Of a DNA stretch of 64,000 nucleotides, positions 6,716-45,179 are shown one piece after another (the first letter of the stretch is position 1; every line of letters begins with the position of its first letter). The notes below the pieces were generated by a model that worked only from the letters and a program-made list of their open reading frames with translations, was not told the origin of the DNA and did not search any database. The translations under genes and the position numbers were made by a program. The stretch spans positions 3,162,001 through 3,226,000 of the forward strand of contig NZ_CP095757.1 in NCBI RefSeq assembly GCF_023093535.1. The letters run 5' to 3'. This stretch comes from Halovivax limisalsi (GTDB taxonomy: Archaea; Halobacteriota; Halobacteria; Halobacteriales; Natrialbaceae).

Positions 6716-7386
6716 CGGTCGCAATCGTTCGATTCGGCGGTTCGAACTGCGATCGCGACGCCGAGCGTGCGCTCTCTCACCTGGGAATCGACGCCGAGAT
6801 CGTGTGGCACGAAGACGGGCTACCGCCGGACACCGACGGCGTCGTCCTCCCGGGCGGCTTCTCCTACGGGGATTACCTCCGGGCGGGGGCGATGGCCGCA
6901 CACTCGCCGATCCTCTCGGCGGTCGAATCGGTCGCCGCCGACGGCGTTCCCGTCCTCGGCATCTGCAACGGGGCCCAGATCGGCTGTGAGGCCGGGCTCA
7001 CCGAGGGGGCGTTTACGACGAACGAGAGCGCGCGGTTCCAGTGCGAGCACGTTCACCTGCGCGTCGAACGGGCCGACACGCCGTGGACGGCGGCCTACGA
7101 GGAGGGCCAGGTGATCGAAATCCCGATCGCCCACGGCGAGGGCCGGTACGAAATCGACGCCGATCGCCTCGCGGAACTCGAAGCCGGGGACCGCGTGCTG
7201 TTTCGGTACTGCGACGCCGACGGTGCGGTGACCGAGGCGGCGAACCCCAACGGGTCGCGAGGCAACGTCGCCGGCGTGTTGGGCGAGCGCGAATCCGTCG
7301 CGGTGATGATGCCACACCCCGAGCGCGCGACGCTCCCGCACGTCGACGGCACCGACGGCCGGGGCGTCCTGCGAGCGTTCGAGTAG
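6712..7386 (+). CDS. purQ: Phosphoribosylformylglycinamidine synthase, glutaminase subunit
   Basis: Class I glutamine amidotransferase subunit that supplies ammonia to PurL for FGAM formation. It opens with VAIVRFGGSNCDRDAERAL, has the oxyanion block VLPGGFSYGDYLRAGAMA, the catalytic cysteine in LGICNGAQIG, and the His/Glu pair in MMPHPERA near the C-terminus. Length of 224 residues is normal. Coupled to purS by a 4-base overlap. Confidence 0.95.
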   Translation: MTVAIVRFGGSNCDRDAERALSHLGIDAEIVWHEDGLPPDTDGVVLPGGFSYGDYLRAGAMAAHSPILSAVESVAADGVPVLGICNGAQIGCEAGLTEGAFTTNESARFQCEHVHLRVERADTPWTAAYEEGQVIEIPIAHGEGRYEIDADRLAELEAGDRVLFRYCDADGAVTEAANPNGSRGNVAGVLGERESVAVMMPHPERATLPHVDGTDGRGVLRAFE

Positions 7387-7548
7387 GGGCCACCGGAACC
7401 GTGGCCAGCGGCGATCGATCGCCGGCGAGGGACCCCGGTCGGCTTCGAGAGCCGATCGGGAAAAATCCAGCGCGACCAGAATCGGCTACAACGTTAATGA
7501 CGGATGGATCCCATTCCCACGTTGAGGAACGCGCACGAGGACGATCGA

Positions 7549-9456
<1,908 letters not shown>

Positions 9457-43877: not shown

Positions 43878-44384
43878 TCACTCCGCGAGTTCGACGTCGA
43901 GTCGTTCCTCCAGCGCGTCGATCAGCCCGCCGCCGATGCCGGCCTGCGTCGCTCGCCCCTGTTCGATCGCCAGGAGATCGGATTCGGGAACCCCGAGGTC
44001 CTCGGCCAGTTCCTCCCGGGTGAGTCCCGCGTCCTGTCTGGCAGATTCGAGGACGTCACCGTACTCCGATACCAGGTAGGGCAGCGGGTCGTCGTCGTAG
44101 TTCGTCCCCTCGCGCTCCCAGTGCTCCGAGTCGCCGTCCCAGACGGGCGTCGCCTTCGCGACGTTCTGGGCGGCCTTCTTCTTTCGATTCCGCTCGTCTC
44201 GGTCGTTCGATCCGGACGACGACGTCGATCCCTTGGATCCGTCGCCGTGTGTCGCACAGCCGGGACAGACCGACAGCCGCGCCCCCGCCACCGTCTCCTC
44301 CGTGAGCGAGTCGCTCTCGGTCCCGCAGAGTTCGCACGTGGTTCCACCGCCGCCCCCGGTGGACCCGGTCGAGTACTTGGCCAT
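43878..44384 (-). CDS. Multiprotein-bridging factor 1-like HTH protein
   Basis: 168 residues. An N-terminal zinc ribbon (CELCGTESDSLTEETVAGARLSVCPGC) follows a Gly-rich stretch, then a basic KKKAAQNVAKATPVWD linker, and a C-terminal XRE-type HTH (LESARQDAGLTREELAEDLGVPESDLLAIEQGRA) precedes an acidic helix. This is the archaeal MBF1 architecture, which bridges regulators or the ribosome and the transcription machinery. Start MAKYSTGST at 44384. Confidence 0.88.
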   Translation of the reverse strand: MAKYSTGSTGGGGGTTCELCGTESDSLTEETVAGARLSVCPGCATHGDGSKGSTSSSGSNDRDERNRKKKAAQNVAKATPVWDGDSEHWEREGTNYDDDPLPYLVSEYGDVLESARQDAGLTREELAEDLGVPESDLLAIEQGRATQAGIGGGLIDALEERLDVELAE

Positions 44385-44503: not shown

Positions 44504-44568
<65 letters not shown>

Positions 44569-44588
<20 letters not shown>

Positions 44589-44738
44589 TCGCATGCGTCG
44601 CCGAAGGCGACGAAACGCGAGGCGGGGCGCGCGGAACCGTTCCGGTTCCGCGTTTCGGTCGAACGGGCGCGAAGCGCCCGTGAAACGCCGCCGAGCGTCG
44701 ATGCAGGTGGAGTCCCTTGGGACTGCACCCACGCACCA
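44569..44738 (+). repeat. 170-bp hairpin-rich direct repeat, copy 1
   Basis: Starts with the T-loop and 3' end of tRNA-Leu (TTCAAATCCGGTCCCACGCA) and continues for 150 bases. It holds four hairpins: CGTCGCC/GGCGACG, CGCGGAACC/GGTTCCGCG, ACGGGCGC/GCGCCCGT and GGTG-AGTCCC/GGGACT-CACC with one G-G mismatch. It ends in CCCACGCACCA, which again matches the tRNA 3' end. A copy with 3 differences lies 286 bases on. Confidence 0.8.
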
Positions 44739-44762
44739 TCTTCCTACCAAGGCAATATTGAA

Positions 44763-44874
44763 CAGCGACGGCGCTGTCCCGTCGGGGTCCGCCGGTGAGC
44801 AGTCGCGATCGCGACTGCGAACGTCGTCACGAAGCGAAAGCGGAGTGACGGAAGTTCAAATCCGGTCCCACGCA
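44763..44874 (+). pseudogene. Interrupted tRNA-Leu 3' fragment
   Basis: CAGCGACGGCGCTGTCCCGT, then CGGGGTCCGCCGGT, repeats the anticodon stem, variable arm and 5' side of the T-stem of the tRNA at 44504, with the anticodon loop reduced to two bases. A 58-base insert (44797-44854) splits the T-arm, then TTCAAATCCGGTCCCACGCA completes the 3' end. It cannot fold into a working tRNA. Confidence 0.7.
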
Positions 44875-45024
44875 TCGCATGCGTCGCCGAAGGCGACGAA
44901 ACGCGAGGCGGGGCGCGTGGAACCGTTCCGGTTCCGCGTTTCGGTCGAATGGGCGCGAAGCGCCCGTGAGACGCCGCCGAGCGTCGATGCAGGTGGAGTC
45001 CCTTGGGACTGCACCCACGCACCA
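44855..45024 (+). repeat. 170-bp hairpin-rich direct repeat, copy 2
   Basis: Same sequence as 44569-44738 with 3 transitions in 170 bases. Two of these lie inside stems and change a C-G pair to a T-G pair, so both hairpins would still fold as RNA. Frames reading through the region give Arg-rich strings and are not genes. Confidence 0.8.
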
Positions 45025-45179
45025 ACTTACTCTCGACGTCACCCGGACAGCGACGGCACCGTCAGTTCGGCGGCGAACCCCCGTCCGGATGGTCGGTGCG
45101 TTCGCCGTCGAATCGCCGTCGGAGTCGATACGCCTTCGGCGTCGGTACGTTTTCGACCGTGGAATACGACGCTCGAACG

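Follow-up and report, generated by a model that had tools for sequence, protein, structure and literature searches.

A class-wide trailer behind haloarchaeal leucine tRNA genes, with a possible role in refolding its own precursor

The window analysed here is a stretch of 64,000 nucleotides of Halovivax limisalsi DNA (contig NZ_CP095757.1). ARAGORN identified a single tRNA gene in it, tRNA-Leu(GAG), and the repeat locus at this gene is flanked by genes for an HVO_2718-like regulator, a NUDIX protein and a nucleotidyltransferase. The regulator family gene (43878-44381, reverse strand, in the window; 7371-7892, forward strand, in locus L145) adjoins tRNA-Leu(GAG) in several families, lying upstream and divergent in the window and downstream in Haloferax. 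For the description of the locus, four strands are named a (GCGTGGG), b (CCCACGCA), c (CGATGC-A-GGTG) and d (CACCCACGCA, which repeats b); P1 is the pairing of b with c, P2 is that of c with d, and R1 is a 44-nt covariance model of the conserved end piece of the trailer. The features are as follows.

44504..44588, forward strand: tRNA-Leu(GAG) gene (ARAGORN; Rfam RF00005, E 4.3e-8)
44504..44510, forward strand: strand a, the tRNA 5' acceptor strand, partner of b in the cloverleaf or of d in the alternative fold
44581..44588, forward strand: strand b, the tRNA 3' acceptor strand with the discriminator, from the sequence
44586..44591, forward strand: P1 5' strand GCATCG, made of tRNA bases 71-73 and trailer positions +1 to +3
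44592..44698, forward strand: variable hairpin insert in the P1 loop, copy 1, from locus comparison; missing in Haloferax
44699..44704, forward strand: P1 3' strand CGATGC (strand c), copy 1, from P1 pairing, covariation and sequence
44706..44729, forward strand: P2 hairpin GGTGGAGTCCCTTGGGACTGCACC, copy 1 (R1 match 44699-44740, E 6e-13; inner pairs covary)
44728..44735, forward strand: strand d, repeating the acceptor 3' strand (CCCACGCA), copy 1, which tracks the host tRNA acceptor in the paralogue and in orthologues
44762..44796, forward strand: remnant resembling a tRNA-Leu 3' half (anticodon-arm-like hairpin, variable arm, T-arm 5' strand); 44767-44796 is 93% identical to 44540-44569
44797..44854, forward strand: insert of two hairpins that interrupts the remnant's T loop; a like architecture is seen in other families (L075, L128, L129, L130)
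44855..44874, forward strand: second copy of the tRNA from T loop to 3' end, TTCAAATCCGGTCCCACGCA, from sequence and repeat comparison
44985..44990, forward strand: P1 3' strand CGATGC, copy 2, from the sequence
44992..45015, forward strand: P2 hairpin, copy 2 (R1 match 44985-45026, E 2.8e-12)
45014..45021, forward strand: strand d, copy 2 (CCCACGCA), from the sequence

An earlier, sequence-only reading of this locus had described two copies of a repeat 286 nt apart, each beginning with the tRNA T-loop and 3' end and folding into several hairpins, with a split tRNA 3' fragment between them. All of this was confirmed. The repeat match runs from 44568-44745 against 44854-45031, the two copies diverge from 44739/45025 onwards, and the 171-nt repeat proper (44568-44738 and 44854-45024) has 98% identity, far above chance. 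The acceptor strand CCCACGCA starts at four places in the window (44581, 44728, 44867 and 45014). The less than 0.3 kb between the repeats consists of hairpins throughout and contains neither an integrase nor a cargo gene. The copies differ by three transitions only (44632 C/44918 T, 44664 C/44950 T and 44684 A/44970 G), of which the first two change a C-G pair into T-G within hairpin stems.

These stem-preserving transitions had been put forward as evidence for an RNA structure, and this argument did not survive comparison with the sister species (G001). There, copy 1 is short and copy 2 long, and the two share 56% identity. Copy 2 of Halovivax limisalsi (G000) is 87% identical to copy 2 of the sister species, the two copies 1 share only 58% identity, and the copies within G000 share 98%. 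Judged from these identities, the likeness of the copies in this genome is due to recent homogenization, copy 1 having been overwritten by copy 2. Since there are only three changes and copy 1 has been homogenized recently, the two transitions are no test of selection and have no statistical weight. A like homogenization involving a different hairpin block (99%) is seen in G045, and near-identical trailer copies inside one genome at L075 (G045), L128 (G253) and L129 (G256) indicate that homogenization recurs.

The second copy is present in G000 and G001, truncated in G002 and G003 and absent in G004, whereas the trailer itself is found in 316 of the 391 genomes of the class; remnant and insert are variously present, decayed or lost among relatives. 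We regard the second copy, made up of the tRNA 3'-half remnant and a trailer, as having arisen through recombination at the 3' end of the tRNA; it would have come to lie behind the first trailer and then homogenized it. In other genomes, L067 (G017) has a second, partial and interrupted trailer ~80 nt past the trailer (GGTGCTGCTCTCCCTCGTGGACA, hairpins, then CATCCACGCACATTCC), and the flank behind the trailer of L078 (G118) contains a long near-perfect inverted repeat around TACGGATTACTGTAACGATGTACCG.

The part of the locus that is shared widely is the end piece of the repeat. It stands behind tRNA-Leu(GAG) in all 47 family loci in the form ..CGATGC-A-GGTGATCTCCCTTCGNGGACATCACC-CACGCA(C/T)AATC, which in this genus reads ..CGATGC-A-GGTGGAGTCCCTTGGGACTGCACC-CACGCAC; L074, L079 and L080 have diverged forms. 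The large hairpins are missing in Haloferax, where a GCATC-GCAA-GATGC tetraloop hairpin makes use of the last three tRNA bases. By comparison of loci, the big hairpins are a variable, expandable P1 loop, and it is the final hairpin, together with the CCCACGCA that follows, that is conserved.

A first pattern search was too strict and suggested an element restricted to the genus. The covariance model R1 corrected this view to a class-wide spread. The 316 matching genomes belong to 71 of 86 genera, usually with one match per genome, and 309 of the 377 good genomes are among them, the sequences being related so that such counts are not independent events. Outside the Halobacteria, no match to R1 was found in a phylum sample of ~100 genomes. 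Among other families, 20 of 20 loci have the end piece immediately after tRNA-Leu(GAG), and it stands behind the same gene in all 13 named Haloferax and Halogranum loci (12 within ~60 nt, L137 at 312 nt), as in every locus that was read. Loci fetched by R1 are biased toward conserved forms; those fetched by the tRNA (L033-L080 and L146-L175, the second set picked for weak or missing matches) are free of that bias. Around one fifth of the genomes have no R1 match and therefore the element is not essential. Several loci (L147-L150, L152-L159, L167, L172 and L173) are trailer-less at tRNA-Leu(GAG) and often have generic tRNA-3'-end units instead, some of them in tandem. In the genus, no trailer of this kind was found at tRNA-Leu(CAG), and tRNA-Leu(TAA) and tRNA-Leu(TAG) have generic T-loop units in its place.

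Both helices of the trailer show compensatory changes. In P1, tRNA bases 71-73 and trailer positions +1 to +3 pair with CGATGC, and at least 5 bp are formed in 110 of 112 loci. Among 99 distinct sequences, position +1 is paired in all (TA in 91, CG in 8), +2 in 97 and +3 in 91, and each of the three exceeds all 2000 shuffles. The inner pairs of P2 covary as well (AT/AT, CT/AG, CA/TG and TC/AA), and its outer strands, GGTG and CACCCACGCA, are nearly invariant; the regular expression behind the count over 112 loci favours conserved outer strands, but the family loci, which were fetched by the tRNA, show the same. Since a mere hairpin should vary along its whole stem, the fixed outer strands suggest a second partner. 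The P2 arms are a few nt apart in L163 and >50 nt apart in L151, and the P1 loop measures between 4 and >100 nt.

A candidate for the second partner of strand d is strand a, the 5' acceptor strand of the tRNA itself. For the resulting alternative fold, 32 distinct strand sets were excised and joined by script patterns that left the varying position free to other bases; 94.2% of cells are paired as against 33-55% in slid controls, and 45 both-side changes, a count that depends on the patterns, compare with 17.6 in shuffles (0 of 500 as high). Strand a pairs with d in 100% of cells, with AU, UA, GC and UG at position 4. Covariation thus supports mutually exclusive helices with common strands: a with d and P1, and also inner P2 and GGTG/CACC. 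The exclusivity of the two folds, as read from these sequences, rests on the double complementarity of the common strands, which themselves vary little.

Computed folding points in the same direction. With ViennaRNA, the mean probability of a pairing with d is 0.976 for 40 GAG precursors and 0.959 for 29 precursors of tRNA-Leu(CAA), that of the cloverleaf acceptor being 0.016 and 0.008, respectively. With dinucleotide-shuffled trailers the cloverleaf acceptor stays at 0.585 (GAG) and 0.683 (CAA); shuffled trailers themselves disturb the acceptor too in 18-29% of cases. The mean gap is ~4.3 kcal/mol over 77 GAG precursors. For the window precursor up to the end of unit 1 the probabilities are 0.004 (a with b) and 0.957 (a with d), and with both units included the second d takes over the pairing. 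The alternative fold is thus predicted to be more stable than the cloverleaf by a calculation that leaves out modification, molar salt and the tertiary structure of the tRNA; during synthesis in the cell the cloverleaf would be the first to form.

A homologous trailer is located at tRNA-Leu(CAA). It consists of TCG..CGATGC or CTG..CAGTGC, followed by GGAAG..CTTCC and then CTCGCA, and its d (CCCTCGCA) copies the acceptor strand of its own tRNA. A second model, R2, which represents this trailer, matches 133 of 194 genomes and 48 of 65 genera, which is a lower bound as R2 misses known variants. In G223 the tRNA-Leu(CAA) acceptor has changed to GCGGGGG/CCCCCGC and d is CCCCCGCA. A search of the 391 genomes for GAAG..CTTCCCCCGCA returned seven loci next to tRNA-Leu(CAA), spread over three genera (g69, g89 and g34) of two families; each has a GCGGGGG acceptor and none GCGAGGG, so that d (CCCCCGCA) tracks the acceptor change. 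Identity of d with b could also arise by copying or as att-core identity. Where the two differ (G317, G214 and the first copy of L317), pairing of a with d is kept through G-U, a point that is weak alone, since most transitions would give it by chance. One genome that has lost the GAG trailer has three consecutive CAA-type trailers (G126:C1:1577042-1577494).

The signals around the trailer are consistent with a transcript that runs through it and ends after it, although this evidence is indirect. No T-tract lies within 8 nt of the tRNA end in any of 99 GAG or 38 CAA loci, whereas 21 of 40 further tRNAs from this genome have one. Of the 99 GAG loci, 90 have a pyrimidine tract (AATCCTTTC) after d, and conservation fades ~10 nt past d. 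The suggestion of a structured RNA co-transcribed with the tRNA thus gains from the class-wide conservation, the compensatory changes and this distribution of tracts, but the big hairpins on which it had laid stress turn out to be the variable part.

At the level of sequence we have established the strands and their order, the class-wide conservation, the covariation seen in P1, in inner P2 and between a and d, and the absence of the element from Rfam. To account for these observations we lean, with a little better than even confidence, towards a trailer acting in cis, conserved at tRNA-Leu(GAG) and with a homologue at tRNA-Leu(CAA), through which pre-tRNA-Leu could adopt either of two mutually exclusive folds. 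Fold A consists of the cloverleaf (a with b) and a trailer hairpin formed by c and d; fold B joins a to d and holds the 3' end of the tRNA itself in P1 with c. The trailer would be co-transcribed with the tRNA and fold A would come first, since d is the last strand to be made. Before d exists the cloverleaf could form and tRNase Z could cut after A73. Once made, c would draw the 3' end of the tRNA into P1 and d would take up the 5' strand, so that tRNase Z would have to act before this invasion by c and d. A precursor left uncut would be trapped in fold B, its 3' end double-stranded and its usual cut site buried in a helix. The trailer probably times 3' maturation in this way, and it may time or limit the output or maturation of both tRNA-Leu(GAG) and tRNA-Leu(CAA). 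In Haloferax volcanii, a precursor end would be expected shortly past CACGCACAAUCC, together with a trailer fragment starting from the +1 base of the tRNA. In a bolder form of this proposal, which we consider possible but doubtful, b and d would be interchangeable acceptor 3' strands, their exchange would be a regulated checkpoint on tRNA-Leu supply, and the generic units at about half of this genome's tRNA genes would represent the device at a younger stage, so that trailer-controlled tRNA folding would be a general mode of regulation throughout the class.

The element would thus be a class-wide non-coding feature of two leucine tRNA genes that is missing from Rfam 15 and apparently undescribed. 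If the cis-switch reading is true, tRNA maturation itself would come under control through RNA refolding, by way of a conserved structure that competes with the acceptor stem in its own precursor. The many additional tRNA 3' ends downstream of haloarchaeal tRNA genes, which are usually ascribed to mobile elements, would then also appear in a new light. The cis-switch reading is directly testable in Haloferax, for which deletion and small-RNA methods exist.

The generic units bear directly on a rival explanation. Around half of this genome's tRNA genes have downstream copies of their own 3' end, mostly 80-160 nt apart and in many cases preceded by an antisense stretch. Direct copies of at least 12 nt exact occur at 20 of 41 tRNA genes (2.3 expected from the flanks of other tRNAs), and antisense stretches of at least 10 nt at 14 (2.9 expected), with 0 of 5000 permutations reaching such counts. 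Such a tRNA has one to three units, in each of which a hairpin, a stretch antisense to the T loop of that tRNA and a core hairpin (CCTGCCAGTCGCAG..GACCGTCTGGC) are joined by a direct T-loop-to-3'-end copy, as in loci L183-L222 (for example L189 tRNA-Ile, L192 tRNA-Lys, L206 tRNA-Glu, L209 tRNA-Ser and L216 tRNA-Leu TAG). Remnant and insert in the window belong with these units, which also occur between tRNA-Leu(CAA) and its trailer in several genomes. The units are possibly related to the trailer, because the order of 3' end, hairpin, antisense, hairpin and 3' end copy is common to both. P1-P2-d could be an old minimal integrative element, with b and d as att repeats, d matching the tRNA as att core, and the second unit as a further insertion or tandem duplication. 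The abundance of exact 3'-end copies, the units ahead of the CAA trailer, the uneven presence of the window's second unit among relatives and the direct repeat of the tRNA 3' end all speak for recombination, and haloarchaeal elements in tRNA genes, which leave partial tRNAs, are well documented (PMC3119063, PMC7921747). This is the best account of the second copy as such, and the earlier suggestion of a scar left by an element integrated at the tRNA is fair for that copy behind its remnant. It is poor for the conserved trailer, which sits at the same two genes across most of the class, shows compensatory changes in P1 and inner P2 and keeps its 8-nt d copies while the flanks vary; moreover, an integrase would not fit. 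As an explanation of the trailer, we regard a recombination scar as rather unlikely.

Two further readings were considered. If tRNase Z freed the trailer as a stable hairpin RNA acting elsewhere, the partners of d might be mRNAs or the tRNA-Leu 5' strand, and both the conserved hairpin followed by a pyrimidine tract and the tRNA-derived fragments and ribosome-associated RNAs known from Haloferax (PMC3432209, PMC6104027) would be in keeping with this. However, d tracks the acceptor of its own tRNA in the paralogue and the orthologues, which would be needless for a free regulator of other targets. A text check also placed none of the known Haloferax sRNAs (s194, IG1.7/htsf242, Hts4 and the 27 genes tabulated in PMC3956466) at HVO_2718, the neighbour family of the locus. 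We thus judge a trans-acting small RNA quite unlikely. A protein-binding palindrome or a folded single-stranded recombination site behind the tRNA, with no role as RNA, seems highly improbable to us: DNA palindromes do yield covariation like that of RNA hairpins, and the generic units behind other tRNAs resemble folded recombination sites, but the P2 arm spacing and P1 loop length are too variable for an operator, the strand is constant, the position is always right after the tRNA, and G-U pairs preserve the pairing with a in the exceptional loci in which d and b are not alike.

A search of the window and six further loci against all 4227 families of Rfam 15, at gathering and permissive thresholds, returned only tRNA and chance hits. 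Guide RNAs of the H/ACA or C/D type were considered and set aside, since no Rfam guide-RNA family matched in the window; in L161 there is one trypanosomatid H/ACA match (E 0.94), under its cut-off and away from the trailer. Nothing pertinent on repeats or alternative folds behind tRNA genes was found in the open-access literature. The distal repeats of E. coli tyrT are tandem repeats of ~178 bp behind a tRNA gene, each with a tRNA 3' end, from which a processed small RNA, rtT RNA, is said to result. The window repeats likewise contain a tRNA 3' end behind a tRNA gene, but they gave no match to the Rfam family of rtT RNA, and the trailer core is an 8-nt acceptor copy with its antisense strand, present class-wide at two tRNA genes.

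Substrates of the splicing endonuclease were also set aside, since a survey of circular RNAs in Haloferax contains only products of tRNA-Trp, tRNA-Met, rRNA and one mRNA, and none of tRNA-Leu (PMC7714728). Haloarchaeal elements integrated in tRNA genes (PMC3119063, PMC7921747) similarly give rise to repeated tRNA 3' ends downstream of an intact tRNA gene, which explains the remnant and second copy; they are, however, of kilobase size, carry integrases and are strain-specific, in contrast to a trailer of ~65-150 nt that is gene-free and class-wide. With bistable cis-acting RNAs such as attenuators, riboswitches and T-box leaders, the trailer has in common mutually exclusive helices with common strands and compensatory changes that keep both, while its competing strand targets the acceptor stem in its own precursor, with no ligand or controlled downstream gene known. 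The haloarchaeal pre-tRNA-Trp intron carries a guide RNA (PMC2584109). The trailer differs from it in not being an intron, in matching no guide family and in having the acceptor stem as partner, and resembles it as a functional RNA within a pre-tRNA that would base-pair with that same tRNA.
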